Below, piece after piece: positions 3,718 to 50,211 of a stretch of DNA of 64,000 nucleotides. The stretch's first letter is position 1. Each line of letters opens with the position of its first letter. Source of the DNA: a virus; the IMG/VR virus record IMGVR_UViG_3300045994_000147, positions 1 to 64,000 of that record, one strand, 5' to 3'. The notes beneath the pieces are model-generated. The model searched no databases. It was given only the letters and a program-made list of their open reading frames with translations, and had not been told where the DNA came from. The translations under genes and the position numbers were made by a program.

Positions 3718-4155
3718 ATGCAAGTAACACCTTGGAAAGAAGAAGAGAAGAAGAGTGATACGCTAGTCGGTGTATATGGCACCTTAAAGAGGGGTGAAGG
3801 CAATCATCGTTTATTGTCTACATCCGAATTAGTAACTACATCCCTAACTCCACCTAACTACGGTCTAGTTGATTTAGGCGCATTCCCTGGTCTAATCCCA
3901 GGAGAGGATAAGGTTGTCATTGAGGTATATAAGGTAAACAACCACACTCTATCTCGATTGGATTCATTGGAAGGTCATCCAACCTTCTATGAGAGGAAGG
4001 AGGTAGATGTTGTTGTCAATGGCAACACAGAGAAGGTGTGGGTATATCATCTTAATCGGCATAAAGACCTGGCCCCGTGGAATCTACGGGATGTTGATGG
4101 CAATATAACTTGGGGGAGACATACTCGTGATTTTTCTACAGAAATACAGGAATAG
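3718..4155 (+). CDS. Gamma-glutamylcyclotransferase-like protein
   Basis: Has the GGCT/AIG2-like fold signature: Tyr-Gly-Thr-Leu at residues 20-23 forms the substrate loop, and Glu85 in Leu-Asp-Ser-Leu-Glu-Gly sits where the catalytic glutamate lies in this family. Members release 5-oxoproline from gamma-glutamyl amines. The length (145 aa) is normal. AGGAG precedes the ATG. It overlaps the ATP-grasp gene, opening a cassette with two more amidoligases and a glutamine amidotransferase. In comparable phage clusters such enzymes are thought to trim or recycle gamma-glutamyl linkages made by the ligases. Confidence 0.85.
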   Translation: MQVTPWKEEEKKSDTLVGVYGTLKRGEGNHRLLSTSELVTTSLTPPNYGLVDLGAFPGLIPGEDKVVIEVYKVNNHTLSRLDSLEGHPTFYERKEVDVVVNGNTEKVWVYHLNRHKDLAPWNLRDVDGNITWGRHTRDFSTEIQE

Positions 4156-4909
4156 CACATCATCAGGTACTGATGTAGCTCAAGCTCTAGATCTACAAAT
4201 CTATACCCCAAACATTGTGCCTTCTCGTAGAAAGGCCGGCCTTATAATCAATTGGGGCATTGGGCATGTACCTTGGCTATACTCTACATCTCAAGCTATC
4301 AATCACCCCAATTACGTAAAGGTAGCTGCTAATAAGCTAAGCACATTCGATGTATTGAACGATGCCTCAATAGATATACCAAGCTATACCACAGCCAAAG
4401 AAGTGGCCTTAGAATGGATTAGAGGGGGCTTTAAGGTCATGTGTCGAACACTACTATCAGCATCTGCAGGTAGGGGTATTGTGGTAGCTAAGGAGGAGGA
4501 GGCTATAATTGATGCTCCTCTCTATGTCAAATATGTAGAGAAGCGTTATGAGTTCAGGGTGCATGTTGTCTTCAATAACGTAGTCAAAATACAACAAAAG
4601 CGTAGGCTCTCCTCTGAATCATTAGCTGAAAGGGGTATTGTAGAGCGTAATAAGTATATCCGTAACTTGGATAATGGTTATATTTTCTCTACTAATATTG
4701 ATGAGGGTTTAGGCGGTTTTATTGAAGAGATGGGAGATATATCCATCAGAGCTATTGGAGAATTAAATTTAAACTTCGGTGCAGTAGATATAATCATTGG
4801 AAGGATAGATGACAACCCCTATATCCTTGAGGTCAATACAGCCCCTGGGCTAGAGGGTAGTACTCTTCAGGCTTATGTAGATGCCTTTAGAGCCCACCTT
4901 TATAATTAG
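4127..4909 (+). CDS. ATP-grasp amide-bond ligase
   Basis: The C-terminal half carries ATP-grasp hallmarks: a Lys-Tyr-Val-Glu nucleotide-binding strand near residue 138, a following Arg-x-His pair, and the Mg-binding end Tyr-Ile-Leu-Glu-Val-Asn-Thr-Ala-Pro near 235-243. Such enzymes join a carboxylate to an amine through an acyl phosphate. The length (260 aa) fits small phage ATP-grasp ligases. It starts with GTG, preceded by GGGGAG, and overlaps the cyclotransferase gene by 29 bases, so the two are probably made together. The substrate is unknown; a peptide or protein end is plausible. Confidence 0.82.
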   Translation: MIFLQKYRNSTSSGTDVAQALDLQIYTPNIVPSRRKAGLIINWGIGHVPWLYSTSQAINHPNYVKVAANKLSTFDVLNDASIDIPSYTTAKEVALEWIRGGFKVMCRTLLSASAGRGIVVAKEEEAIIDAPLYVKYVEKRYEFRVHVVFNNVVKIQQKRRLSSESLAERGIVERNKYIRNLDNGYIFSTNIDEGLGGFIEEMGDISIRAIGELNLNFGAVDIIIGRIDDNPYILEVNTAPGLEGSTLQAYVDAFRAHLYN

Positions 4910-4919
4910 GAGGATACCT

Positions 4920-5252
4920 TTGGACGACATAACTATAGCTAGGAGGTATGCAGCTAAAGCAGATCAGGCCAGAGACAATGGCCATGAGTTCCTTTTATCT
5001 TTCAATGAGTATAAGAGGTTAGTAAAAAGGAAGAAGTGCTACTACACCTCTATCCCTTTCTTACAAGGTGATAAACAACTTGGCCTGTCTCTAGATAGAA
5101 TTGATAACAGTAAAGGTTATGTCTCAGGTAATGTAGTAGCCTGTCTAAAAACCATTAACACAATTAAGAGTAGTCTTGAGAACCCAAGTAACCCAATAGG
5201 TGTGAAGCACTTGAAGAGAATGTGTGATGCCCTCATTAAATTAGGAGTATAA
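4920..5252 (+). CDS. HNH-type homing endonuclease-like protein
   Basis: TTG at 4920 is chosen as start because AGGAGG lies six bases before it; this gives 110 aa. The middle contains Leu-Asp-Arg-Ile-Asp-Asn-Ser-Lys-Gly-Tyr followed by Gly-Asn-Val, the usual end of small phage HNH nucleases. The first metal-binding residue is replaced by Asp, so activity is uncertain. It stands free between amidation genes, as mobile HNH genes often do in phage genomes. Confidence 0.55.
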   Translation: MDDITIARRYAAKADQARDNGHEFLLSFNEYKRLVKRKKCYYTSIPFLQGDKQLGLSLDRIDNSKGYVSGNVVACLKTINTIKSSLENPSNPIGVKHLKRMCDALIKLGV

Positions 5253-5253
5253 G

Positions 5254-5595
5254 ATGTATAAAGCTAAAGTAGATCGTACTTGGATTGATAGCAGCGGGCT
5301 AGTGCTTGTACAGACTACGAAGGGCCCAGGATCCGAGCACCCTAAACCACACCCATTCGCTATTGTCAAGATTGGTGGTGTACAAGGATCCAATATTAAG
5401 TTCGAAGGTGTGAGGGAAGGTGATTTGTTAAGATGTGACTCCCTACCCTACATGTCCCGTCCTTCCCCTATTTACTCAAATGACTATAAGTACGAAACCT
5501 ATACTAAAGCTGGACGTAAGTTCATGAGGTCTAAAGCCTTATACTGGCCAGTGAAGTTACCCAATGGCTTTTGGGTGCTGAGGGAACAGCGATGA
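5254..5595 (+). CDS. Protein of unknown function (113 aa)
   Basis: AGGAG lies six bases before the ATG, just after the HNH gene stop. The product is basic, beta-rich by appearance, with many tyrosines and prolines, and has no membrane segment. No family recognised. Its place inside the amidation cassette may be coincidental. Confidence 0.6.
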   Translation: MYKAKVDRTWIDSSGLVLVQTTKGPGSEHPKPHPFAIVKIGGVQGSNIKFEGVREGDLLRCDSLPYMSRPSPIYSNDYKYETYTKAGRKFMRSKALYWPVKLPNGFWVLREQR

Positions 5596-5804
5596 ACATT
5601 ATAGAAGCTTACCTTTTAATAGGGTTAATAGTTGTTGTTGTAGATTTGGTGGTGTACTTAATGAAAGGGAGGGGTTTAATGGTTGGTGATATAGCGACTT
5701 ATGTTCTAGCTATCATTACATGGCCAGTATTTTTATTAGATTATTTAATTAAACTAATTAATGACAACAGGCACACAGTGGCGATCAAGGGGTGGAAGAA
5801 ATGA
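5592..5804 (+). CDS. Small membrane protein, paralogue 1 (70 aa)
   Basis: The ATG at 5592 overlaps the previous stop and has GAGGGA upstream, so it is preferred over a longer frame. Two hydrophobic segments lie at about residues 5-25 and 38-57. It resembles the following gene along its length (shared Tyr-Leu-Leu-Ile-Gly start and Trp-Pro in the second segment), so the pair looks like a tandem duplication. Function unknown. Confidence 0.6.
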   Translation: MNIIEAYLLIGLIVVVVDLVVYLMKGRGLMVGDIATYVLAIITWPVFLLDYLIKLINDNRHTVAIKGWKK

Positions 5805-6034
5805 ATCCTATTATAATCTATCTACTAATAGGGGCTGCATTAGCCACACTCCTCCAGTTGTACATAGGCGGCGGCTTAAAGGTTAAGGAGGTGTTTTTGT
5901 TTATTGCATGCGCCCTCATTTGGCCTTTGCTGCTATTCGTTGCAGTCTATTTAGGAGTGTTTGAGGGTGTAATTTACCTTTATAATACTTACGGAAACGC
6001 CTACCTTATCAACCCAAAAAAGGACGAAGAATGA
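5801..6034 (+). CDS. Small membrane protein, paralogue 2 (77 aa)
   Basis: The start overlaps the previous stop as ATGA. Hydrophobic segments lie at about residues 4-24 and 32-54, followed by a polar tail. The N-terminal Tyr-Leu-Leu-Ile-Gly and the central Trp-Pro match the upstream gene, supporting duplication. Function unknown; both would sit in the host inner membrane. Confidence 0.6.
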   Translation: MNPIIIYLLIGAALATLLQLYIGGGLKVKEVFLFIACALIWPLLLFVAVYLGVFEGVIYLYNTYGNAYLINPKKDEE

Positions 6035-6180
6035 AGGTAATATCTTATTTACTATGGCTTTTACCGGGTATTTGGCTACAAAAGCACGGTATATCGGTAC
6101 TATCATGGGACTATTGGTTATTGGTGCTACTGATAATCTTATTAACATCAACAGAAGTATACAGAACTCGCGGGTTCTGA
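6031..6180 (+). CDS. Small membrane protein (49 aa)
   Basis: A short complete frame overlaps the previous stop (ATGA). It has two hydrophobic stretches, residues 4-18 and 25-40, and a basic tail. It is the third membrane microprotein in a row. No family recognised; coupling and hydrophobic pattern are the only support. Confidence 0.5.
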   Translation: MKVISYLLWLLPGIWLQKHGISVLSWDYWLLVLLIILLTSTEVYRTRGF

Positions 6181-6219
6181 ATTTAATTTAAAGTATTTAA
6201 AATACTAGGGGTATATATT

Positions 6220-7032
6220 ATGAGCAATAAGTTTTTTATGGTTGGTTCAGATCCTGAGGGATTTCTGAGAGATAGAGAGAATAGATTGGTGAGTGCCATT
6301 GGAGTAGTACCCGGTAGTAAGAGTGACCCATTTAAAACTAAACACGGCTCTATTCAGCACGATAATATTCTAGCTGAATTCAATAGCATCCCTGCTGCAT
6401 CCCTTCATGATTTCATCAACAATCATCGGTTAATCATAAGGGATTTGGAGGAGGTATTATCTCCATTAAACTTAAAGTTAGACTTCTCTGCAAGTGCTGT
6501 AGCAGATCAAGGACTACTATCAGATCCGTTGGCCATTAGAGCTGGGTGTGAGCCAGACTACAATGCATGGACTCTCTCTGAGAACATCCCACCAGATTAC
6601 ATCACAACTAATACCAGAGCTGCTGGTGGCCACTTACACATCTCCTTCGATCAGGCCGTTAACTCTCCTGAAAATCGTGTAAAATTCGTTAAAGCTCTTG
6701 ACTTGGTATTAGGGGTTCCATCGGTTATTTTCGATGGAGACAAAGAACGACGTAAGTTATACGGTAAAGCTGGTGCCTTTCGTCCTAAAGATACCAACAA
6801 TTCTGATCCTTATGATGGTGTCGAGTACCGTACTCTCTCCAACTTCTGGCTTCGTAGCAATGAACTGATGTCCTTTGTGTACCAAGGGGTTGAGGAGGTC
6901 TATAACAACTTAGACTCCCTCTCTGATAAAGCTGAGTACTTCAAGGCAGATATCTTAAAGGCCATAGGTTCAGGGAGTAAAAACAAAGCCATTATCTTAT
7001 GTAAAGAGGCAGGTATCAACTATGCGATTTGA
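6220..7032 (+). CDS. Phage COOH-NH2 ligase, type 2 (phiEco32-like)
   Basis: A 270-aa enzyme of the glutamine-synthetase-like amidoligase superfamily. Visible signatures are Gly-Ser-Asp-Pro-Glu-Gly at 9-14, His-Asp-Asn with Glu-Phe-Asn at 47-55, Ala-Gly-Gly-His-Leu-His-Ile at 135-141 and Val-Glu-Tyr-Arg near 201-204. These supply metal and phosphate ligands in the family. The reaction expected is ATP-dependent joining of a carboxylate to an amine. The last 11 bases overlap the next gene, and the cassette also holds Amidoligase_2 and a glutamine amidotransferase, which would supply ammonia or remove glutamine. Confidence 0.85.
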   Translation: MSNKFFMVGSDPEGFLRDRENRLVSAIGVVPGSKSDPFKTKHGSIQHDNILAEFNSIPAASLHDFINNHRLIIRDLEEVLSPLNLKLDFSASAVADQGLLSDPLAIRAGCEPDYNAWTLSENIPPDYITTNTRAAGGHLHISFDQAVNSPENRVKFVKALDLVLGVPSVIFDGDKERRKLYGKAGAFRPKDTNNSDPYDGVEYRTLSNFWLRSNELMSFVYQGVEEVYNNLDSLSDKAEYFKADILKAIGSGSKNKAIILCKEAGINYAI

Positions 7033-8803
7033 TCAGATACGAGAACTTGAAGTCTCGGACTTTTCCCCACAGGATCTACGACTCTTCTCGAACCAGAGGG
7101 AACTAGATCTTCGTAGGTACTTTAACTTTAACGATGAAGTTATCTCCGCTATTTCATCAGTAACTAGGCCGCAGGCAGTTGCTATGTCACATTTGGTTTG
7201 TGATATAATTAACACAGCTTCCAGTCACTATAGGGCTTACTTAGGTAGTATAAACTACTCTAATGTTGATATTGTAAGAAGATTATTCATTAAGTTGGAC
7301 AATATTGCCCGACCTGATGGGGTGATGTCTTTAAAGCGCAGTATCATGCAAAGTATGAGTGCTGATGGGATTCTATATGCTATCACTAGATACTCGCCTG
7401 TGGAATTAGTGATAATGGGTGTAGTTCCAATTGATATGATAACTTGTTTAAGACGCCAATTCAGAGGTGCATCGCCTAGAATTCAGCTTGAATATATGGA
7501 TTCAATTGGATTCTTGGATCGACACTATCAATCTAGTGTAGAATCAACTGAACAGCAGCGTATGGTAGAATCATCACTCGGTGTATTGGATGAAGTAGAA
7601 GTAAGTGATGTACTTGATTCATCTATATACTCAGTAAGATCGACGCCAAGGACATTTGATTGGGGCGATGCTCTTAGAAATGTATCTGTACAAGCTACAA
7701 GTGGCGGGCCTGATTCATTAATCCGACCACCCAATCCTGTCAGACTATCGCCCCAACCAGAAGACGTGGGCCCCATAAATCCTTGGATCCCTTGGAGTGG
7801 TGGTACTTGCCCAGTACCTGTGGGAATTATGATTGTCTATAAAATAAATGGTAGTGACAGGATTAACGGGCCTACTACCAGCGAAATTTTAAGATGGAGT
7901 CATACAGGCGGTGATGGGGATATTAACTCCTACAGTGTAGTAAGGAGGCCCACAGGAGGATGGATCCCTTGGGGCGGCGGGGCAAGACCAGTACCTGCTA
8001 ACATCAAGGTGTACTATAAGACTGGTGCTGGAGGCATGCGTGGCCCAAGAGAAGCTAGAGGTCTACGTTGGGATCATGTTGGCTCTGATTCAGATATCTT
8101 AGAATACAAAGTATTCATAGAAGAATTAATCTCTCTAGCTGAAGCACCTGAGCCTTATACCAGAGAGTATACCGAAACACAAGATGATCTAATTAAGAAG
8201 TATTCAGATTGTTTTGCTCGGTACAACGGTTACACCGTGAAGATCCTTGGGTTCACTAGAAGCAAACATGCAGAAGTGGCTAGACTGGATAGTGATGAGC
8301 CTATAATCACTGTCTCCGACCTTAGCCTATTGGATCATACCTTCCCTAAGGTAGGATACATTAACAATGGTATGACAGCTACATTTGTACAGCGCCTCCA
8401 TAAGAGAGGTAGTGACAGGTACAAGAAAGGAATTCATCCAAGCACATTCAAGTATACAGATACATGTGTGCTTGAGATGAGCAGGGCTCGATTGTCTTAT
8501 GATAGACGGAGTATTATGCATAACCTCCTATATCCAGTGTTCCCTGAGTACAATGAGGCCATAGAGAGTCTGTTAGCGTATGAGAAGCTATCAATAGCCC
8601 TCTCCTCCTCTATCTGTATTAGTATATCAGCTCGATTGGGTAGGATTATTCTTGAGAAGAACTGTAAGATAATTGGGTACTACAACGTAAAGAAGAAATC
8701 GTTTATAACCTATACCGACCTCTTTAATAAAGACTTGGACAAATTAGGTATTAAATACACATTCAAACAAATAAAGAAATTGGAGGGTTTATGTCAAGAG
8801 TAG
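7022..8803 (+). CDS. 593-aa protein with a duplicated Trp-rich module
   Basis: Not recognised as a whole. Two copies of a module of about 50 residues lie in the centre: 255-307 and 314-365, each starting Trp-Ile-Pro-Trp-x-Gly-Gly, continuing with Pro-Val-Pro and ending with an Arg-Trp-x-His and Asp-Ile-x-x-Tyr motif. Similar short modules occur singly in other phage proteins of unknown role. The flanking halves (1-200 and 390-593) are helical, without signal or membrane segments. It overlaps both neighbouring amidoligase genes, so it is probably a partner, for example the substrate or scaffold of the modification. Confidence 0.7.
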   Translation: MRFDQIRELEVSDFSPQDLRLFSNQRELDLRRYFNFNDEVISAISSVTRPQAVAMSHLVCDIINTASSHYRAYLGSINYSNVDIVRRLFIKLDNIARPDGVMSLKRSIMQSMSADGILYAITRYSPVELVIMGVVPIDMITCLRRQFRGASPRIQLEYMDSIGFLDRHYQSSVESTEQQRMVESSLGVLDEVEVSDVLDSSIYSVRSTPRTFDWGDALRNVSVQATSGGPDSLIRPPNPVRLSPQPEDVGPINPWIPWSGGTCPVPVGIMIVYKINGSDRINGPTTSEILRWSHTGGDGDINSYSVVRRPTGGWIPWGGGARPVPANIKVYYKTGAGGMRGPREARGLRWDHVGSDSDILEYKVFIEELISLAEAPEPYTREYTETQDDLIKKYSDCFARYNGYTVKILGFTRSKHAEVARLDSDEPIITVSDLSLLDHTFPKVGYINNGMTATFVQRLHKRGSDRYKKGIHPSTFKYTDTCVLEMSRARLSYDRRSIMHNLLYPVFPEYNEAIESLLAYEKLSIALSSSICISISARLGRIILEKNCKIIGYYNVKKKSFITYTDLFNKDLDKLGIKYTFKQIKKLEGLCQE

Positions 8804-9702
8804 ACAATTATGGCGTAGAAATAGAGGCCGAAGGTATTAGGTATGACTTCAATGATTCCAAAAACATCCACAATGGGCGGTTCTTTGAGTTAGATGTACC
8901 TGAAACCCAATCACTCTCTCATTGGTCTGCGGTTAAAGATGGATCATTGAGGAATGGGGTTGAGTTTATCTTTAAGGGGCCTAAGTCATACGCAGCTTCT
9001 ATCAAGGCTTTAGAGCAGATACAGTCACTATTTGATCTAGCAGCCCAACAGGAAAAACCAATTATACTGAGCGATAGATGCAGTGTGCATGTTCACTTAG
9101 ATTGCAGAGAGTTAACAAAAAATGAGGTAGTTAACTTTATATTCTGTTATCTACTAATTGAGAGAATACTCTTTAACTGTGTTGATATATTCCGTCAAAA
9201 GAATACCTACTGTAGGCCATTGAATGATTCGGTATTTTCTGGCATCCTGATGGAGCTACTAAGGGTTAGTAGTGAAGAACAAAGATCCATCTATAACTAT
9301 ATCACTAGAAGTTGTGATAAGTACTCCGCCTTAAACCTATTACCTCTAACTTCATACGGTTCAATTGAGTTCAGGCACCATCAGGGCACAACCAATACCG
9401 CCGATATTATTAAGTGGATTGATTTGATAAGGGCTTTGAAAGATACTGCCCTCTCATCAGATATACTTGACTTATTGAATATCTATGATACACTTGGTTA
9501 CAGGTCACTACTATCACACATTTTCCCTGATCGGCCGGACTTAATAGATTTACCTAACTCTTCGGACTTAGTGTATAGTGGGGTTGTTGGTGTCAGAGAG
9601 ATACTGTTAGCTGATAAGTTAAGAGATATCAATTCAGTGGTTAGAAGAGATAATAAATCGGATATGTTTGAACAATTCTTAAAAGCTAAAGGGAGAGTAT
9701 AA
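8791..9702 (+). CDS. Amidoligase_2 family enzyme (303 aa)
   Basis: Shows the second type of glutamine-synthetase-like amidoligase: Gly-Val-Glu-Ile-Glu at 8-12, Asp-Gly-Ser-Leu at 50-53 followed by Glu58, Val-His-Val-His at 99-102 and Gly-Ser-Ile-Glu-Phe-Arg-His-His at 190-197. The glutamates, histidines and arginine form the metal and ATP site in the family. The start overlaps the 593-aa gene by 13 bases, and the stop is directly followed by the amidotransferase gene. With two further ligases nearby the phage encodes three unrelated or distantly related amide-forming enzymes. Confidence 0.85.
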   Translation: MSRVDNYGVEIEAEGIRYDFNDSKNIHNGRFFELDVPETQSLSHWSAVKDGSLRNGVEFIFKGPKSYAASIKALEQIQSLFDLAAQQEKPIILSDRCSVHVHLDCRELTKNEVVNFIFCYLLIERILFNCVDIFRQKNTYCRPLNDSVFSGILMELLRVSSEEQRSIYNYITRSCDKYSALNLLPLTSYGSIEFRHHQGTTNTADIIKWIDLIRALKDTALSSDILDLLNIYDTLGYRSLLSHIFPDRPDLIDLPNSSDLVYSGVVGVREILLADKLRDINSVVRRDNKSDMFEQFLKAKGRV

Positions 9703-9703
9703 A

Positions 9704-10990
9704 ATGTGTGGATTAGTCGGTGCAATAACCCGGTCAAACAAACGTGCTGATTTCGATCTGGTCAGTAAGTTTGTAGAACAAGCTCTATATTGTGATACCC
9801 TCCGGGGTGCTCATGGTACTGGTCTGCTATCAGTGACTACCCAAGGGGTTGTCGAGGTGCACAAGAGAGCTCTATCAGGCCCAGATTTTCTGGAGTTAAG
9901 TAAAACAAAGTCAATGTTGAATTCATTTTCTAATGATATTTTCATTGGTCACAATCGGTTTGCAACACAAGGAGCACGCTCAAATGAAAACAGTCATCCA
10001 TTCTCGCATGACCACATTCATCTATTCCATAACGGAACACTTAAATCGCATCGCACTCTATCTTCAAGAGTTTTTGATGTTGATTCAGAAGCTATAGCCC
10101 ACCTACTATCAGAATCCGACAATGTAAAAGCATCTTTAGAGAAGATAGAAGGTGCTTATTCTCTCGTTTGGTATAATGAAGAGGATGATACAATAAACTT
10201 TGCTAGAAATGAAGAGAGGCCAATGTATTTTGGTGATATCGCGGATGGCAAGGGCTTATTATTCGCAAGCGAAGGCGGCATGGTATCTTGGTTAGCTAGT
10301 AGAAATGGAATTAAACTAGATAAGATATACGCCACTGAAGTAGGAAGTTGGATATCTATTAACTTAGATGCCTCTAAGAAAGCTAAGGTCACTAAATTCA
10401 CTCCTAAAGAAGCAGTGAGCTATACCAACTTCTACAATAGAGGTACAGCTGCTACTGTACACAGAACAACCGAAGGCCCTTCCGATCCTATTATTGTAAC
10501 GCCTACAGCATGGTTCCCTTATAACCCACAAGCAAACCATCCTTATGGTAAGCTGGTAGCAACTTATCTACACAAGGGTGTAGTATATGACGTGAACATT
10601 AGCGGTATAGATCGAGAGGAAGCTAAGCAGTATATAGGTAAGAAGGTACGGGTCAAGATAGGCACTTGTTCTCTAAAGGAGATATATGGGCCTTTGGACA
10701 AGAATCAAGATAACTTAGAATCAACTGGGCTAGTGGTCGTTGAGACCGGAAAAAAGTCAGGGGTAAAAAGGCTAAAAAACGCTTTCGGTAAACCTGTAGA
10801 TGCATGGGAATTTGGAAGGTTAGTTAAAAATGGGTGTAAAGTTTGTAGCGGTATTATTTTACCAGAAGATTATGATGACGTAATCTTCGATTTCAGCGGG
10901 GATCCTTTATGTGAGGATTGCGCTAAGGATGAAGATAAAGCATTTGACGTAGCTTATTATCAAACAGTAACTAACCACGGATCACATTAA
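9704..10990 (+). CDS. Class II glutamine amidotransferase with zinc ribbon
   Basis: Begins Met-Cys-Gly-Leu, so removal of Met exposes the Cys2 nucleophile of Ntn-type glutaminases. Arg-Gly-Ala-His-Gly-Thr-Gly (34-40), Gly-His-Asn-Arg-Phe-Ala-Thr (82-88) and His-Asn-Gly (109-111) are the glutamine-binding and oxyanion motifs. The domain ends near 240. A unique region follows, with Cys378, Cys381, Cys403 and Cys406 forming a likely zinc ribbon. It should split glutamine and pass ammonia or a glutaminyl group to a partner; no synthase domain is fused, so the partner is probably one of the neighbouring ligases. Confidence 0.87.
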   Translation: MCGLVGAITRSNKRADFDLVSKFVEQALYCDTLRGAHGTGLLSVTTQGVVEVHKRALSGPDFLELSKTKSMLNSFSNDIFIGHNRFATQGARSNENSHPFSHDHIHLFHNGTLKSHRTLSSRVFDVDSEAIAHLLSESDNVKASLEKIEGAYSLVWYNEEDDTINFARNEERPMYFGDIADGKGLLFASEGGMVSWLASRNGIKLDKIYATEVGSWISINLDASKKAKVTKFTPKEAVSYTNFYNRGTAATVHRTTEGPSDPIIVTPTAWFPYNPQANHPYGKLVATYLHKGVVYDVNISGIDREEAKQYIGKKVRVKIGTCSLKEIYGPLDKNQDNLESTGLVVVETGKKSGVKRLKNAFGKPVDAWEFGRLVKNGCKVCSGIILPEDYDDVIFDFSGDPLCEDCAKDEDKAFDVAYYQTVTNHGSH

Positions 10991-11895
10991 TGCTAAAACA
11001 AGCGAATGTAGTAGTAAATTTAGGTAGCAACAACGCGTATTCTCAATACGGTCAAACAACTTCAGTAGAGTACTCATACCTAGAGGAGGTGGAGGGCGGT
11101 TATAAAGAGCGGTTTAGGGCAGTAAAGTGCAGAGAGTTGGCAGTTGATCCGATAACCTCAGCTCATGCTAAGATTCCGCTGTTTCTAGGGGGGCTTAGGG
11201 TTAACTTAGATAATGCTGTTAACCTAGATAAAATGTTGATGTCTATCCATATTACCAACCGAAAAGCACATATAGGCGGTGGAAAGGAGATGGATAATTT
11301 CATTGAGAATATTCCAGTACTCCATGCTATTGAGAAGAAAGCTGGATTTAAAAGAACTACCTTTAAGGATGGTGGCTATAATTCGACCTTAGACTGTAAT
11401 ATAATCGTTGTTGAAGGCTCTAAGAGATGGTGCATGAATGCTACAATGGCTAGCATATATACTGCCCTACTACGGTTAATGGCTTACAAGGTCGATAATA
11501 CTGGGCTCTTATGGGGCCTTAATACTAAAAGTGGTGTTGATACCACTGATGTGTCTATAGCAAAAATCTTAGGTGGTAATGCGTTCAAACTGGATATCTT
11601 ATTGAAGAACTGTGTGAAAGTTTTCGGAAAGAATAGGGTAACAGGTATTAATGATGAAGCGATACTAGGTGGAGTACCTGATAACTGCGACAACAACCAA
11701 CTCTCGGTACGCTACCCGTCAGGAGATGGGATTGGAAGCTGGAGTTTATCCTACGCTCATGGATCATTAGGTATGGGTAATTTATACTCAAACATCTCAT
11801 CACTAAATTATAATGCAAATTATTTTCAATGTATAGAGTTCGCTAAGAATTATATAAAAATAGAGGAAAAGGAGCTAAATGAAAGAATCCAATAG
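10990..11895 (+). CDS. Unknown protein linked to the amidation cassette (301 aa)
   Basis: The start shares one base with the amidotransferase stop (TAATG), so the two are translationally coupled. No signal peptide, membrane segment or known catalytic motif is seen. The product looks mixed alpha/beta with conserved-looking glycine-rich stretches (for example Ile-Gly-Gly-Gly-Lys near residue 96). Its last 17 bases overlap the primase-helicase gene, so it could belong to either group. Function unknown. Confidence 0.65.
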   Translation: MLKQANVVVNLGSNNAYSQYGQTTSVEYSYLEEVEGGYKERFRAVKCRELAVDPITSAHAKIPLFLGGLRVNLDNAVNLDKMLMSIHITNRKAHIGGGKEMDNFIENIPVLHAIEKKAGFKRTTFKDGGYNSTLDCNIIVVEGSKRWCMNATMASIYTALLRLMAYKVDNTGLLWGLNTKSGVDTTDVSIAKILGGNAFKLDILLKNCVKVFGKNRVTGINDEAILGGVPDNCDNNQLSVRYPSGDGIGSWSLSYAHGSLGMGNLYSNISSLNYNANYFQCIEFAKNYIKIEEKELNERIQ

Positions 11896-13522
11896 CTATG
11901 TAGAAAACATAGGGTGTAGTGAATGCGGTAGTTCAGATGCAGTAGGGGTCTATCAACGACCAGATGGCTCCCACTTTGGCAAATGCTTTAAGTGTGAACA
12001 TGTACACCATGATCCATATGGTAACAGAGAAGAGGTAAGTGAGTTCAAAGAGATTAAAGTTGAAAGTGTATACCCTAAGGGCGGTGGTTCAATAAACCCA
12101 TTGATCACTAGGGGTATAAGTAGAGAGGTATGTGAGAAGTTTGGAGTTGAGAGTATACTTGATAATAAAGGTATAGATATAGTTCACTTATACCCTCATA
12201 CCTCCAAAGAAGGGAAGAGCGTTTGTATAAGAACAGTAGAGGACAAGAAGTTCTCTTGGAAAGATGCCACTAAATCAACTGAATTCTTTGGTCAGAGTAT
12301 AGCTGGTGATGGTGGCAAGATGATTATAGTAACTGAGGGAGCATGTGATGCTCTCGCAGCTACTGAAATGCTAATAAAATCTGGTAAATCCTATAGAGTA
12401 GTATCTATAGTTAATGGGGCATCAGCAGCTGTAAAAGACTTTAAGAATAACTATGAATGGATTAATGGTTTCGAGAGCATCTTTATAGCATTTGATCAAG
12501 ATGAACCCGGACAAAAAGCTGCTCATAAAGTAGCTGATATGTTCCCTCCTAACAAAGTTAAGAACATTGTTTTCTCAGAGAAGGATCCCAATGATCTACT
12601 ACTGTCAGGAAAGTACAAGGAATTTCTATCGGCCATATTTGCAGCTAAGGAGTCAAGGCCAGATGGCATTGTATCAGTAGATGATTTGTATGACGAGGCA
12701 ATCACCCCCCCTGTAATGGGTAAGTCATTCCCTTGGGAATCACTGACTGAAGTTACCTATGGCTATAGAACAGGGGAACTGTGGGGTATAGGTGCTGGCT
12801 CTGGTTGTGGTAAGACCGAATGGTTCAAGGAGATGATTAATCACACCATCTACTTCCATAATGAAGTGGCAGGTGTCATATTCCTAGAGGAACCAGCAGC
12901 CAAGACTCTTAAGGTACTAGCAGGTAAGAGGGTCAATAAGCGATTCCATATCCCACAGGATAAAGGGGGCGATTGGACTGTTGAAGAGCTGGTAGATGGT
13001 ATTAATGATCTGAAGGGGAAAGTATATCTTTATAATCACTTTGGTAGTAAAGACTGGGAGTCTATTAAGTCTAAGATCAGGTACATGGTTGTTGTACTTG
13101 GTGTTAAGAGCATCTTTCTAGATCATTTAACGGCATTGGTAGCACAGGAAGACAATGAGTATAAAGCACTTAACAAACTTATGGAAGAAATGTCAAGCCT
13201 CTGTCAGGAGTTGGATTGTACTATCTTTTACATATCTCACTTACGGAAAGCATCTGGCACACCCCATGAGGAGGGAGGCAGAGTCACGGCAGACCAGTTT
13301 AAGGGATCTGGCGCTATTGTGTTCTGGAGCAATTTTCTAATCGGCCTTGAGAGAAATCAGCAAGCCGAAGACAATGATGAAAAGAATACAACTACTCTTA
13401 GAGTTCTCAAAGACAGGAATACTGGTATTGCTACTGGTACTACTTTCAAATTGAAGTATAATCATAATACAGGAAGATGGGGTGAATTAGATGGCGATGA
13501 GTTTGACGAAGATTGGAACTGA
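11879..13522 (+). CDS. Primase-helicase (T7 gp4-like)
   Basis: Domains in order: a four-cysteine zinc finger (Cys13, 16, 36, 39) that reads the priming site; a TOPRIM core with Thr-Glu-Gly-Ala-Cys-Asp near 156 and Phe-Asp-Gln-Asp-Glu-Pro-Gly near 204; and a RecA-type helicase domain with Gly-Ser-Gly-Cys-Gly-Lys-Thr (about 306-312), Phe-Leu-Asp-His as Walker B and a Ser-His-Leu-Arg motif. At 547 aa it is close to T7 gp4 (566). It unwinds DNA at the fork and makes primers. The end overlaps the next gene by 32 bases. Confidence 0.93.
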   Translation: MKESNSYVENIGCSECGSSDAVGVYQRPDGSHFGKCFKCEHVHHDPYGNREEVSEFKEIKVESVYPKGGGSINPLITRGISREVCEKFGVESILDNKGIDIVHLYPHTSKEGKSVCIRTVEDKKFSWKDATKSTEFFGQSIAGDGGKMIIVTEGACDALAATEMLIKSGKSYRVVSIVNGASAAVKDFKNNYEWINGFESIFIAFDQDEPGQKAAHKVADMFPPNKVKNIVFSEKDPNDLLLSGKYKEFLSAIFAAKESRPDGIVSVDDLYDEAITPPVMGKSFPWESLTEVTYGYRTGELWGIGAGSGCGKTEWFKEMINHTIYFHNEVAGVIFLEEPAAKTLKVLAGKRVNKRFHIPQDKGGDWTVEELVDGINDLKGKVYLYNHFGSKDWESIKSKIRYMVVVLGVKSIFLDHLTALVAQEDNEYKALNKLMEEMSSLCQELDCTIFYISHLRKASGTPHEEGGRVTADQFKGSGAIVFWSNFLIGLERNQQAEDNDEKNTTTLRVLKDRNTGIATGTTFKLKYNHNTGRWGELDGDEFDEDWN

Positions 13523-13733: not shown

Positions 13734-13936
13734 AAGAAACAACTATAGTAAGTGTAGCGGTTGAATTAGGAGAAGAGTATTTATACTTCACAAGCAAATC
13801 TGACTTTGTAACTAAGATGAAAGGGATGGCAGATTTGCTACCAGAAAGCGCACAGGGTATAGTCTTACGTATAGCTTATTCAGGTGGAATGTCCGATGAG
13901 ATGTATTATGATTATGAGAAGGAATCAAATGAGTGA
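13730..13936 (+). CDS. Small acidic protein of unknown function (68 aa)
   Basis: Coupled to both neighbours by four- to eight-base overlaps. The product is acidic with a tyrosine-rich end, and shows no membrane segment. No family recognised. It belongs to a run of four small genes between helicase and exonuclease that may encode replication accessory proteins, by position only. Confidence 0.55.
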   Translation: MKETTIVSVAVELGEEYLYFTSKSDFVTKMKGMADLLPESAQGIVLRIAYSGGMSDEMYYDYEKESNE

Positions 13937-14087
13937 CCTTGATGAGTGTAGGGCCCTATTGAAGCATATATACTACCAACTGCCATTAGTAGCTGATGTA
14001 TATGAGTACCGTAGGGTTAAAGAGTTGCGTGATAAAATAGATCTGCTATTAAACTCTTATAAAAATAAGGAATCAAATGACAATTAG
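13929..14087 (+). CDS. Small helical protein (52 aa)
   Basis: AAGGAA eight bases upstream selects the ATG at 13929 over a longer frame. The product is helical and charged, with two leucine-rich amphipathic stretches that could form a helical hairpin or coiled coil. The stop overlaps the next gene. Function unknown. Confidence 0.55.
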   Translation: MSDLDECRALLKHIYYQLPLVADVYEYRRVKELRDKIDLLLNSYKNKESNDN

Positions 14088-14403
14088 AAATGATGGGATT
14101 ATAGTACGGCAACTCTTCTTACTCATTGAGAAAGAGAAGTATGATAAGCGTCTATTGGATCTACTATCAGAAACTGTAGATAAATCTTGGTATCAAGACT
14201 CTTGTGGCGGAGGGGACACAAGTTTACACATACAATTCAAGAACGGTATACAAGCAGCCATCTTTAAGAACTTAGACCACAATAATCTATACCTATCCGA
14301 TGAGTTATTCTATATGGACAGTGAGACATCAGACTCTAAGATCTCTGATGATCGGCTGTTATTGTATCTTAATAATATAGGACAATATAAATATGGTCAC
14401 TAA
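14077..14403 (+). CDS. Protein of unknown function (108 aa)
   Basis: AAGGAA before the ATG supports the start. The product is acidic, has a glycine-cysteine-glycine-glycine turn near residue 46 and no membrane segment. The last base overlaps the exonuclease gene start (TAATG), indicating coupled translation with the polymerase-associated exonuclease. Family unknown. Confidence 0.6.
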   Translation: MTIRNDGIIVRQLFLLIEKEKYDKRLLDLLSETVDKSWYQDSCGGGDTSLHIQFKNGIQAAIFKNLDHNNLYLSDELFYMDSETSDSKISDDRLLLYLNNIGQYKYGH

Positions 14404-14942
14404 TGTACAAAAGTGAGGTGGTATGGGACTTAGAGGCTAATGGTCTCATAAAAGACTCAACTGAGGTCTGGTGTATATCTTTAAAAGATATAACAAATGG
14501 CCAGAAGTTTAATCTAAATGGTAGTAACCTTACTAGGAGAGAGGTACTACGCCATTTTGAAGGGGTTACCAATATCATAGGACACAATATCATAGCGTTC
14601 GATATACCAATGATTAAGAAGTTCTATGACATTGATTTAATTGAACTTTTAGGTAGAGATAAGATAACTGATACCCTCCTTTGGAGTCAAGTGCTCTACC
14701 CAGATCGACCAATGCCAAGGGGCTGTCCTACTTCCATAACCAACCCAGTCACTAAGAAGTCCAAGAAGATTGGGCCTCATGGCTTGGAGGCATGGGGATA
14801 TAGGGTCGGCCATAAGAAGATAGAGATACACGACTGGTTAACATACACACCTGATATATTAGATAGATGCGATGTTGACGTTGACATTAATGAATTAGTT
14901 TACTATGAGCTTCTAAAGGAAGCGGGGATAAGATGTGATTAA
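14403..14942 (+). CDS. 3'-5' exonuclease: separate proofreading domain of a T7-type DNA polymerase
   Basis: A DnaQ-fold proofreading domain. Asp9 and Glu11 in Trp-Asp-Leu-Glu-Ala-Asn form ExoI; His61-Asn with Asp67 is ExoII; the Cys-Asp-Val-Asp-Val-Asp stretch near 155-160 is ExoIII. A T7-like His-Gly-Leu-Glu-Ala-Trp-Gly-Tyr segment lies between them. In T7 the same domain forms residues 1-190 of gp5; here it ends just where the polymerase domain would begin. That domain is encoded 3.6 kb downstream (18532 onward). The two proteins probably assemble at the fork. The end overlaps the PRPP synthetase start. Confidence 0.88.
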   Translation: MYKSEVVWDLEANGLIKDSTEVWCISLKDITNGQKFNLNGSNLTRREVLRHFEGVTNIIGHNIIAFDIPMIKKFYDIDLIELLGRDKITDTLLWSQVLYPDRPMPRGCPTSITNPVTKKSKKIGPHGLEAWGYRVGHKKIEIHDWLTYTPDILDRCDVDVDINELVYYELLKEAGIRCD

Positions 14943-15768
14943 GATATATTACCCAAATGGGGAAGAGGAAGAGGTAGGTGGTACTACTTTCACAGGTGGT
15001 GAAGAGCACATTAACCTAAAGAAGAGGGTACTTGTTAGCAACTGGCCTATACTGATAACAGCTAGAAGTGTGACATCCTCTGAGATAATTAGAATACTAC
15101 TAGTAACTGATGCCCTTAGAAGGTACTACCCAAACGACATCAACCTCTCCTTACCTTACCTACCATATGCTCGTCAGGATAGAGCGTGTAATGAGGGTGA
15201 TGCATTTAGCCTAGAGGTCTTCGCTAATATCATAAACTCACAGAACTATAAGACAATCTTTACTATAGATACCCATAGTCCTGTAGCCGCTAAGTTAATA
15301 AGAAACTTACATGTTAACCCTGCTGATCAAAGCGTTGTATCTATACCTACTTATTATGATTACTTTGTAGCCCCAGATAAAGGTGCTGTAAGTAGAGTAG
15401 AGAGTTGTGCAGCCTTATGGAACTTACGGTATCATAATAACCCAGTGGGAATTGTTACTGGTACTAAAACTAGAGATGTTACCAATGGTAATTTAGTATA
15501 TGACCCATTAGTTTGCCCTGATCTAACCGGAAAGAAGTGCCTAATAGTTGACGATATTTGTGATGGAGGTATGACATTTATCCTATTGGCTAAAGAATTA
15601 AAGAGGAAGGGTGCAGAATCAATAGATCTGTATGTATCTCATGGTATATTTAGTAGAGGTACTGAAGTTCTATGGGAAGCTGGTATAGATAAGATATACA
15701 CAACAGACTCTATATACAATAGAGCTCGTCAACTTAACAATGTAACAGTAATAATAGCATCACTATGA
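14935..15768 (+). CDS. prs: PRPP synthetase family pyrophosphokinase
   Basis: Family signatures: Leu-Pro-Tyr-Ala-Arg-Gln-Asp-Arg (76-83), Ile-Asp-Thr-His (111-114) and the ribose-phosphate loop Val-Asp-Asp-Ile-Cys-Asp-Gly-Gly-Met-Thr (205-214). At 277 aa it is shorter than cellular enzymes (about 315). It starts with GTG inside the exonuclease gene and overlaps the NAMPT gene by four bases. Classical members make PRPP from ribose 5-phosphate. In the phage NARP1 pathway a homologue pyrophosphorylates ADP-ribose instead and an NAMPT-like partner adds nicotinamide to rebuild NAD. Sequence alone cannot tell which substrate is used. Confidence 0.88.
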   Translation: MIKIYYPNGEEEEVGGTTFTGGEEHINLKKRVLVSNWPILITARSVTSSEIIRILLVTDALRRYYPNDINLSLPYLPYARQDRACNEGDAFSLEVFANIINSQNYKTIFTIDTHSPVAAKLIRNLHVNPADQSVVSIPTYYDYFVAPDKGAVSRVESCAALWNLRYHNNPVGIVTGTKTRDVTNGNLVYDPLVCPDLTGKKCLIVDDICDGGMTFILLAKELKRKGAESIDLYVSHGIFSRGTEVLWEAGIDKIYTTDSIYNRARQLNNVTVIIASL

Positions 15769-17228
15769 GCCCAATAAACCACAAAGACGCATATAAAATC
15801 GGACACATCAATCAATATCCTACTGGTACTACTGAAGTCTACTCTAACTTTACAGCACGATCAGGTAAGTTATCTAATGTACCTGGATCTACAGGTATCT
15901 ATTTTGTAGGCTTACAACACTTCCTCAAATCCTATCTAATTGATGATTGGAATAATAACTTCTTCCTTAAACCTAAAGAGGAGGTATTACGGAAGTATAA
16001 GAGAAGAGTCTCCAATATCTTAGGGTACGATGTAAATGTAGATCACATTGGCTCCCTGCATGATTTAGGGTTCTTACCTGTAAGAATTAAATCATTACCA
16101 GAGGGCACATTCGTACCTTATGGCGTCCCTATGTTAACTATTAAGAACACTATCCCAGAGTTCTATTGGGTTACTAACATGTTAGAGAGTGTTCTTTCCT
16201 CTGAATTGTGGCAACCTATTACTTCAGCTACCACCTATATGGCTTACAGAAAGATCTGTGAGAAGTATGCTGATATGACAGGTGTTGATAGAGGGTTTGT
16301 AGGATATCAGACCCATGACTTCTCCTTTAGAGGTATGCCGGGTAAGGAGCCAGCAGCTAAGTCTGGGGCAGCTGTGTTAGCTATGGGTTGTTTAGGTACT
16401 GATTGTGTTAGTGCTATTGATCTATTGGAAGATTACTATGAAGCTGATTCAGATAAGGAAGTAATTGGACAATCAGTTAATGCCACCGAACATAGTGTAA
16501 TGTGCTCAGGTGGTAAGGAAGAGGAGTTAGATACTTATAAGCGGCTATTGACAGAAGTGTATCCTAGTGGTATAGTGGCTATAGTTAGCGACACATGGGA
16601 CTTCTGGAATGTAGTAACTAATACCTTACCTGCCTTAAAAGATATCATCTTAGGTAGAGATGGCAAATTAGTTATTAGACCTGACTCCGGTAATCCAGTG
16701 GATATTGTTTGTGGTAGTGTAGATGCTGGTAGTGTAGCAGAAGCTAAGGGTCTTATCGAGTGTTTATGGGATACCTTTGGTGGTACTATAAATGATAAAG
16801 GTTATAAGGTTTTAGATAGTCACATTGGAGCTATCTATGGAGAAGCAATTACCCTCCAAAGGGCTGAAGAGATATTGAGTAAGCTTGAGGCTAAGGGCTT
16901 TGCCTCCTCTAATATCGTATTTGGTGTTGGTTCTTACACCTACCAAATGGTTACTCGTGATACTCACGGTATGGCTATGAAGAGTACTAATGTTGTAATC
17001 AATGGTAAGAGTACACCTATCTTTAAAGATCCTAAGACAGATGGCGGTTTAAAGAAGAGTGCTAAGGGGCTATTATATGTTACCTCAGAAAAGGGTGTAC
17101 TGAAATTAGTGGATGAAGCTAGTAGACAAGAAGAGAAATACGGTTTACTCCAAACAACGTTTTGTAACAGCTTATTATTTAACGAAACAACTTTAAAAAG
17201 AATAAGAGGAGTAGTAAATGACCAATAA
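15765..17228 (+). CDS. nadV: Nicotinamide phosphoribosyltransferase family enzyme
   Basis: A full-length (487 aa) type II phosphoribosyltransferase. Residues matching the human enzyme include the N-terminal Asp-Ala-Tyr-Lys (8-11), Phe186 and Arg189 in His-Asp-Phe-Ser-Phe-Arg-Gly, His243 in Thr-Glu-His-Ser, and Arg305/Asp307 in Ile-Arg-Pro-Asp-Ser-Gly-Asn-Pro. It would form NMN from nicotinamide and PRPP, or NAD directly if the donor is the ADP-ribose pyrophosphate of NARP1. It is coupled to the synthetase gene, and no NMN adenylyltransferase is visible in the window, which favours the second option. NAD rebuilding counters NAD-depleting defences. Confidence 0.9.
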   Translation: MSPINHKDAYKIGHINQYPTGTTEVYSNFTARSGKLSNVPGSTGIYFVGLQHFLKSYLIDDWNNNFFLKPKEEVLRKYKRRVSNILGYDVNVDHIGSLHDLGFLPVRIKSLPEGTFVPYGVPMLTIKNTIPEFYWVTNMLESVLSSELWQPITSATTYMAYRKICEKYADMTGVDRGFVGYQTHDFSFRGMPGKEPAAKSGAAVLAMGCLGTDCVSAIDLLEDYYEADSDKEVIGQSVNATEHSVMCSGGKEEELDTYKRLLTEVYPSGIVAIVSDTWDFWNVVTNTLPALKDIILGRDGKLVIRPDSGNPVDIVCGSVDAGSVAEAKGLIECLWDTFGGTINDKGYKVLDSHIGAIYGEAITLQRAEEILSKLEAKGFASSNIVFGVGSYTYQMVTRDTHGMAMKSTNVVINGKSTPIFKDPKTDGGLKKSAKGLLYVTSEKGVLKLVDEASRQEEKYGLLQTTFCNSLLFNETTLKRIRGVVNDQ

Positions 17229-50154: not shown

Positions 50155-50175
50155 GATACCCTCTTAGGTAAGTAA

Positions 50176-50211
50176 CCCCCAGTGGTGCGCTTCATAGAGA
50201 GGCGTAGGGGG
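50176..50211 (-). terminator. Weak terminator or processing hairpin after the capsid gene
   Basis: CCCCC (50176-50180) and GGGGG (50207-50211) form a GC-rich stem, with a GCG/CGC pair inside, just after the capsid gene stop on the minus strand. No T-run follows, so it may cause partial termination or protect the 3' end of capsid mRNA. Confidence 0.45.

Follow-up and report, generated by a model that had tools for sequence, protein, structure and literature searches.

A divergent copy of the phage amidoligase cassette that may attach and release a gamma-glutamyl cap

Introduction

Amidoligase gene clusters are, in general terms, a known element of phage genomes whose product is still a matter of proposal, as the first-pass annotation of the DNA analysed here had correctly stated. 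They are referred to in the literature as a putative peptidoglycan modification cassette or module (PMC5498523, PMC11945000, PMC10580990), and later papers credit their description to Iyer 2009 and Hardies 2013 (PMC5498523, PMC11945000). The cassettes of RIO-1/HP1, phiEco32, 7-11, PA11, tf, MR299-2, LUZ24, PaP3 and CW02 encode five enzymes, namely a COOH-NH2 ligase, an Amidoligase_2, an ATP-grasp ligase, a class II glutaminase and a gamma-glutamyl cyclotransferase (GGCT), with a further gene, here called family X, between the two amidoligases and, in most of them, an adjoining primase-helicase gene. Regarding their expression, the cassette genes of Pseudoalteromonas phage HP1 are expressed immediately (PMC7082346), ORFs 32-48 of PaP3, among them the ligase ORF48, belong to the middle genes (PMC4707531), and the ATP-grasp, glutaminase and GGCT proteins of SU10 were detected by mass spectrometry (PMC4281155). 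No published activity for any enzyme of the phage cassette was found in the accessible literature.

Organization of the cassette

The window (the whole stretch analysed, 64,000 nucleotides of a virus record) carries the same five enzymes between positions 3718 and 11895. All the genes that the first-pass annotation had named lie there and their identities agree with Pfam and PHROG; its inventory of enzymes and two uncharacterized proteins stands, although neither the HNH gene nor the small ORFs figured in it. The features, with their supporting evidence, are the following:

3718..4155, +, GGCT/GGACT (AIG2-like) gamma-glutamyl(amine) cyclotransferase, 145 aa (Pfam, solved relatives, conservation)
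4127..4909, +, ATP-grasp ligase, RimK/MptN glutamate-ligase-like, 260 aa (PHROG, NCBIfam below cut-off, conservation)
4881..5252, +, HNH / endonuclease VII-like gene (phrog_3118, 5e-29)
5571..6034, +, two small ORFs, 77 and 80 aa (translations inspected by eye)
6220..7032, +, phiEco32-type COOH-NH2 ligase type 2, 270 aa (Pfam, PHROG, conservation)
7022..8803, +, 593-aa protein with N-terminal part, PVP repeats and family X (PHROG, iterative HMMs)
8165..8800, +, family X domain, residues 382-593 of the 593-aa protein (AlphaFold2, Foldseek)
8791..9702, +, Amidoligase_2, 303 aa (Pfam, conservation)
9704..10990, +, class II glutamine amidotransferase, 428 aa (Pfam, PDB glutaminase halves, conservation)
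10990..11895, +, 301-aa protein, family W301 (loci, alignment, AlphaFold2)
11879..13522, +, DNA primase/helicase, not part of the cassette (phrog_239, 6e-167)

The enzyme genes and the two further genes share the plus strand and mostly overlap, with junctions of -29, -11, -13, +1 and -1 bp and a last one of -17 bp into the primase-helicase, and clear Shine-Dalgarno-like sequences precede several of them. The single gap, of 185 bp, lies upstream of the COOH-NH2 ligase. An HNH gene, probably a homing endonuclease outside the pathway, and three small ORFs are found inside the block, and the 77-aa and 80-aa ORFs, located between the ATP-grasp and COOH-NH2 ligase genes, appear by eye to have two hydrophobic stretches apiece. 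Promoter- and terminator-like sites showed no excess over shuffled sequence, no envelope targeting was obvious among the cassette proteins and no substrate gene was recognisable. An identity as a known anti-phage defence system was dropped, as none of seven proteins matched a PADLOC model.

With the COOH-NH2 ligase, Amidoligase_2, ATP-grasp, glutaminase and GGCT in one operon and X intervening, the window cassette is a divergent copy of the published one. It differs from the known cassettes in the fusion of its X to a long N-terminal region that contains two PVP repeats, in the presence of W301 and in its own order, GGCT-ATPgrasp-(HNH)-LIG-X-AL2-GAT2-W301 (LIG being the COOH-NH2 ligase, AL2 the Amidoligase_2 and GAT2 the glutaminase). 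This order is identical in Podoviridae sp. ctwe8250 (MW202615.1), where W301 is likewise followed by the primase; its ligase is 60% identical to that of the window and its capsid protein about 85%, whereas its X is a 231-aa protein without PVP repeats and its cassette has no HNH gene.

The adjoining replication genes, together with the amino-acid-linked bases that some phages use, would fit a cassette that places amide-linked groups on the bases of phage DNA. This is nonetheless highly improbable: DNA of the cassette phage tf could be cut with HaeIII and sealed with T4 ligase, and its Sanger sequencing was normal (PMC3517423); moreover, none of the window proteins scanned was recognisable as the product of a hydroxymethylpyrimidine or base-kinase gene.

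Enzymes and active sites

The GGCT (Pfam GGACT, 2e-23) has the YGTLKRG form of the YG[ST]L motif, and its candidate catalytic residue Glu85, which aligns with that of 3jub, is 91% conserved in 72 relatives; YtfP (1xhs) and the human AIG2-like gamma-glutamylamine cyclotransferase (3jub/3juc) are its solved relatives. The ATP-grasp protein (phrog_2599, 1.5e-61; Pfam RimK, 1.9e-4, just above the cut-off) has K70, E142, R144, K158, D221 and E235 invariant in 116 relatives, and the models nearest to it are glutamate ligases: NCBIfam MptN (3e-11, 42.8 against a 350-bit cut-off) and the RimK family (2.5e-7, 30.3 against 143 bits). By sequence, it thus resembles the RimK/MptN ligases but is not a member of either family.

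The COOH-NH2 ligase (Pfam COOH-NH2_lig, 4.6e-8; phrog_3815, COOH.NH2 ligase, 9.3e-67) has ten invariant residues in 116 relatives (D11, E13, D48, E53, R133, H138, R177, R188, E202 and R204). In the Amidoligase_2 (Pfam, 1.4e-13; PHROG amidoligase, 9.7e-44), E10, E12, S52 and E58 are invariant in 118 relatives, and H100, H102, Y178, N182, E193 and R195 are conserved in at least 98% of them. Both proteins share the order [DE]xE...HxH...ExR, which is reportedly expected of glutamine-synthetase-like ligases, although a profile comparison between the two (hhalign) was not significant. The three ligase folds initially proposed for this cassette are therefore probably two.

The glutaminase matches Pfam GATase_6 over its N-terminal half only (5.6e-16), a PHROG of glutamine amidotransferase-like proteins (7.8e-71) and the glutaminase halves of GlmS and PurF in the PDB. 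Its class II (Ntn) site is complete, with Cys2 following the Met, R85, N110-G111 and D127, and a CxxC...CxxC pair is located near the C-terminus. Neither a SIS, a phosphoribosyltransferase nor an ATP-pyrophosphatase synthase domain was detected, and the Pfam and NCBIfam matches end in the N-terminal half, far below the equivalog cut-offs; from its sequence, it is classified as a stand-alone glutaminase and not as a GlmS, PurF or AsnB synthase.

Family X and the 593-aa protein

Neither the 593-aa nor the 301-aa protein gave anything meaningful in Pfam, and their assignment to the set is supported by the fact that both belong to recurring cassette families. In the 593-aa protein, an N-terminal part that varies is followed by a tandem pair of WxPWxGGxxPVP repeats (residues 251-308 and 308-365), and family X forms the C-terminal domain; PHROG supports this layout through matches to the repeats and to phrog_11055. 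Iterative HMMs seeded with this protein or with LUZ24 gp17 converged on the same 42 proteins, and the X model also recovers HP1 gp44 (1.9e-10). The direct order LIG-X-AL2 was found in 98 of 133 loci. These observations support a new definition of the 593-aa protein as a recurring cassette part whose C-terminal X domain lies between the ligases.

The AlphaFold2 model of X (pLDDT 92.4, pTM 0.85) predicts a two-part beta domain, which Foldseek aligns with protein H9D1D2 of Salinivibrio phage CW02 (TM 0.70/0.77, E 9e-12) and, at E <= 0.001, with nothing in the PDB. The predicted fold weakly resembles tandem SH3/KOW/Tudor folds, which bind proteins or nucleic acids. The idea that X serves as a covalently attached carrier or tag, in the manner of Pup or LysW, was rejected because its alignment has neither a conserved C-terminus nor a modifiable acceptor residue. 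In 24 of the 26 well-flanked loci lacking X, the Amidoligase_2 is 445-638 aa long (median of 330 aa where X is present), its domain beginning after 90-200 residues in nearly all of the long proteins. A fusion of X to Amidoligase_2 was considered and rejected: the extension has no HMM or profile match to X, and no amidoligase appears among the listed fold hits, so that both are equivalent in position only.

The weak resemblance of X to SH3/KOW/Tudor folds, together with a RimK-like ATP-grasp protein (RimK modifies a ribosomal protein), is what could be expected if the cassette added glutamate or amides to side chains or to the C-terminus of a host or phage protein, with X as the target-recognition subunit. 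Such a reading is unlikely, since the cassette has no conserved substrate protein, X has no conserved acceptor residue and its fold matches in the PDB all have E > 0.2.

The 301-aa protein

The 301-aa protein is supported as a member of another recurring cassette family, newly defined here and named W301, which was found at 30 loci. C47 and G261 are invariant in its alignment and H257 is present in 26 of 27 relatives. Its model (pLDDT 76, pTM 0.80) had no PDB match by fold (best E 0.5), nor did its sequence; single-sequence searches gave no phage tblastn or viral-contig match, and its relatives matched neither PHROG nor Pfam. A speculative and rather unlikely extension of the main proposal would be that X is a scaffold joining both ligases in a multi-enzyme complex and W301 a new-fold cysteine-dependent enzyme (C47/H257) catalysing an extra, undescribed acyl- or amide-transfer step, so that together they would cap cell-wall precursors with a gamma-glutamyl group specific to the phage.

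Distribution and release enzymes

The COOH-NH2 ligase, Amidoligase_2, ATP-grasp and class II glutaminase were found in 315, 349, 310 and 338 phage records, respectively, with nearly equal genus counts, and the ligases occur in about 315-350 isolate genomes. LUZ24-like and phiEco32-like podoviruses are among the carriers, and so is a crAss-like Cellulophaga phage. A cellular origin was rejected, the genome scan having returned only 13 loci, all on MAG contigs and several of phage size. The order of the genes is conserved in about 100 related loci, which excludes chance clustering, and the four core enzymes are present in 72, 71, 70 and 71 of the 72 well-flanked relatives. A decaying or coincidental metabolic cluster without joint function would account for the inserted small ORFs and HNH gene and for a gene order that differs between phages; however, the catalytic residues of four of the families are near 100% conserved in more than 110 sequences and each core enzyme recurs in 70-72 of 72 loci, and due to this conservation it is the least probable reading of all. 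The synteny, the co-occurrence and the intact active sites thus lend good support to the early proposal that these genes form one amide-bond pathway.

A GGCT and/or a C26 gamma-glutamyl hydrolase is encoded in 70 of the 72 well-flanked relatives. The Cys-His-Glu triad of the C26 protein is conserved, and the C26 relative matches the "probable glutamine amidotransferase" and Lin1909 structures. The complementarity between both release enzymes weakens on collapsing relatives, from a Fisher p of 0.003 at 60% identity to 0.20 at 50%.

This pairing of ligation and release is reminiscent of the Puu polyamine pathway, in which PuuA is a glutamine-synthetase-like ligase and PuuD a C26 gamma-glutamyl hydrolase, and of BtrJ/BtrG in butirosin synthesis: by this analogy, glutamate would be ligated as a gamma-glutamyl cap, which a cyclotransferase or C26 hydrolase would later release. 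The cassette has no aldehyde or amine oxidase steps, and its second glutamine-synthetase-like ligase and class II glutaminase are extra. That logic, and the structures matched by the C26 relative, also agree with a cassette that makes a soluble gamma-glutamyl metabolite, such as a modified peptide or polyamine, or that serves the nitrogen or amino-acid metabolism of the host, leaving the wall untouched; in the Planctomycetes phage ZRK32 the same enzymes were termed auxiliary nitrogen-metabolism genes (PMC10945688). The growth effect in that study came, however, from the whole phage and not from these genes, and two such ligases, a glutaminase and a dedicated binding protein exceed the needs of nitrogen assimilation. 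This alternative is doubtful, albeit less so than protein modification.

Proposed pathway

From the chemistry of the enzymes, a pathway can be proposed in which gamma-glutamyl groups are attached, extended and released, the target being a cell-wall precursor, a metabolite or a protein. The glutaminase would free ammonia from glutamine, the ATP-grasp enzyme would couple a carboxylate to glutamate or to some other amino acid, and the two glutamine-synthetase-like ligases would join carboxylates and amines, one of them probably via the gamma-carboxyl of glutamate, with X as a putative non-catalytic binding subunit of the ligase pair. The GGCT, or the C26 hydrolase in relatives, would release the gamma-glutamyl group, so that this group, its alpha-amine being free, would serve as a protecting group or cap. 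All this would take place early to mid infection. For cyclotransfer, the alpha-amine of the gamma-glutamyl group must be free; in the gamma-D-Glu of the peptidoglycan stem it is not, and the GGCT is therefore not expected to act on an ordinary stem peptide, which makes doubtful the trimming role once suggested for it.

Our preferred, still tentative reading (probability of roughly 0.4) is that of a divergent amidoligase cassette attaching and releasing a gamma-glutamyl cap whose acceptor would most likely be an amine of a peptidoglycan precursor, for instance the side-chain amine of diaminopimelate, which may result in altered cross-linking. Peptidoglycan as the target, proposed from published suggestions and from chemistry, is the weakest step.

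Perspectives

Several hundred sequenced phages carry this cassette, whose product has been a guess since 2009. The definition of its parts (family X, a release step by GGCT or C26, and W301), together with the chemical limit on the GGCT, leads to narrower hypotheses about that product, and also points to informative laboratory phages, such as the E. coli phages Bas86-Bas94.

Organization of the cassette and its genomic setting

The window takes in bases 1-64,000 of an IMG/VR virus record of 66,908 bases, and its capsid protein shares about 85% identity with the counterpart in podovirus ctwe8250 (MW202615.1) and 50% with those of the Pseudomonas phages KPP25/phiR18. The amidation cassette that the first-pass annotation placed near the start of the window is borne out, with the enzymes it named encoded on the + strand:

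3718-11895, + strand: cassette block, in the order GGACT/AIG2-like cyclotransferase (GGCT), ATP-grasp, HNH endonuclease, three small ORFs, phiEco32-type COOH-NH2 ligase (LIG), 593-aa protein, Amidoligase_2 (AL2), class II glutamine amidotransferase (GAT2) and 301-aa protein, then primase-helicase
7772-8116, + strand: two tandem WxPWxGGxxPVP repeats (residues 251-365 of the 593-aa protein), matching PHROGs of unknown function

From GGCT to the primase-helicase, the genes are spaced by -29, -29, +1, -25, -13, +185, -11, -13, +1, -1 and -17 bp, and these tight or overlapping spacings indicate that the cassette is probably one transcription unit. The HNH/endonuclease VII-like gene (4881-5252) sits inside it; HNH genes also lie within the cassettes of UFV-P2 and Rhizobium phage RHph_I3_11, and their differing places suggest repeated homing into the operon. 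Near the cassette, 14935-17228 encodes a ribose-phosphate pyrophosphokinase and a nicotinate/nicotinamide phosphoribosyltransferase, a pair that could be an NAD-supply pathway and has similar versions near the cassettes of 7-11, LAh_6, Slicky01 and Lbo-JY46.

Two observations concern the capsid region. An Rfam abiF RNA match (50175-50211, - strand; 40.4 bits, cut-off 37) directly follows the major capsid gene, was not found at the corresponding place in MW202615, and may reflect chance or act as a decoy towards an abortive-infection system. In MW202615.1, a group I intron match (67 bits; 804-1126 of the fetched locus L150, about 13803-14125 of the record) precedes the annotated capsid gene and seems to split it; a PacI-like endonuclease is encoded upstream.

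A known phage cassette

By tblastn against 50,697 phage records, LIG was found in 315, AL2 in 349, ATP-grasp in 310 and GAT2 in 338, with nearly equal counts of the four per host genus. The same gene set is present in the annotated loci of UFV-P2, LUZ24, 7-11, ECBP2, CW02, PA11, RHph_I3_11, LAh_6, Slicky01 and Lbo-JY46, as well as in the crAss-like phage phi14:2, and a primase-helicase usually adjoins it in annotated relatives. The window system is a further member of an already-known cassette, named the "peptidoglycan modification cassette" and supposed to prevent superinfection (PMC5498523, PMC11945000, PMC10580990, citing Iyer 2009 and Hardies 2013), while a competing published view assigns it to nitrogen metabolism (PMC10945688). 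No direct enzymology of the cassette was found in the papers covered, with Iyer 2009 and Hardies 2013 represented by citing papers.

Regarding expression, the cassette genes of HP1 are transcribed immediately after infection (PMC7082346), and in PaP3 the ligase ORF48 belongs to a run of middle genes, ORFs 32-48 (PMC4707531). In an SU10 preparation, mass spectrometry detected the glutaminase by 9 peptides, ATP-grasp by 6, GGCT by 2 and, by a single peptide, a 23.3-kDa neighbour whose numbering is at odds with the deposited record (PMC4281155).

Family X and the 301-aa protein

Iterative HMM searches seeded with the 593-aa protein, its 231-aa counterpart in ctwe8250 or LUZ24 gp17 converge on the same 42 proteins, here family X. 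In a wider set of 133 non-redundant loci, the family lies directly between LIG and AL2 in 98. It already figures in the published cassette, as the hypothetical protein gp44 of HP1 (match at 1.9e-10). Its core (residues 382-593 of the 593-aa protein; predicted structure with pLDDT 92.4) matches the X protein of CW02 (TM 0.70/0.77) and other phage proteins, and gives weak PDB matches (E > 0.2), many of them to SH3-like KOW, Tudor or EF-P domains. Family X has no conserved polar cluster, which makes binding the better guess for its role. The window copy has an additional N-terminal part, which resembles, by eye, that of the relative locus L003, and its WxPWxGGxxPVP repeats, a phage repeat module, are absent from all other fetched cassette loci. 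In HP1, the N-terminal extension of the ligase gp42 (4283-5482 of locus L148) and a segment of gp47 (7880-8299) resemble SH3/MIB-type repeats by eye, so that modules of an SH3-like kind may be a recurring element of the cassette.

Where family X is present, the median AL2 length is 330 aa. AL2 reaches 445-638 aa in 24 of the 26 well-flanked loci lacking X (the other two have a 293-aa AL2 and no detected AL2), and in nearly all long forms the domain begins after 90-200 residues. This extension gives no sequence match to family X, so positional replacement is shown, but not homology. The long-AL2 form without a separate X gene is that of phi14:2 (L151, NC_021806.1, 22025-27669), and several IMG/VR loci of this form lie on contigs of about 97-103 kb.

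The family of the 301-aa protein, present in 30 fetched loci and lacking a Pfam or PHROG entry, usually follows ATP-grasp or the glutaminase, and occurs twice in tandem in some phages. An alignment of 27 members shows C47 and G261 in every one and H257 in 26; the predicted model (pLDDT 76, pTM 0.80) has no PDB match (best E 0.5). The protein is a possible candidate for a cysteine-dependent enzyme.

Active sites, proposed release step and pathway

In alignments of 72-118 relatives per family, the catalytic residues to be expected of each enzyme are almost invariant: C2, R85, N110, G111 and D127 of GAT2; D11, E13, E53, R133, H138, E202 and R204 of LIG; E10, E12, E58, H100, H102, E193 and R195 of AL2; K70, E142, R144, D221 and E235 of ATP-grasp; and E85 of GGCT. 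No GlmS, PurF or AsnB synthase half was recognised in the window GAT2, which therefore appears to be a free-standing source of ammonia. The closest models to ATP-grasp are RimK/MptN-type glutamate ligases, but with scores well under the cut-off. E. coli YtfP aligns with GGCT, as does human AIG2-like domain protein 1, a gamma-glutamylamine cyclotransferase.

Among the 72 well-flanked loci, 23 carry GGCT alone, 27 a C26 gamma-glutamyl hydrolase alone, 20 both and two neither. The Cys-His-Glu triad is kept in the C26 members. The pattern has p 3e-5 before the collapse of relatives, 0.003 after collapse at 60% ligase identity and 0.20, not significant, at 50%. Gamma-glutamyl bonds are cleaved by both kinds of enzyme, suggesting that the two answer a shared requirement; C26 was not found within the window.

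Cyclotransfer needs a free alpha-amine on the glutamyl group, and this amine is acylated in an ordinary stem peptide, which GGCT therefore should not be able to cut. The first interpretation is partly supported: it stands as regards a multi-enzyme cassette for amide bonds, and is doubtful as regards GGCT trimming the ordinary stem peptide; the enzyme could instead remove a gamma-glutamyl group from a side-chain amine. The same requirement leads us to prefer a cap-and-release pathway, in which the glutaminase would supply ammonia, ATP-grasp and the two GS-like ligases would make amide bonds with glutamate, and GGCT or C26 would take off the gamma-glutamyl cap. A soluble metabolite as the product, or a protein as the target, are serious rivals as to what is modified; for the cap-and-release pathway, the likeliest acceptor would be a cell-wall precursor.
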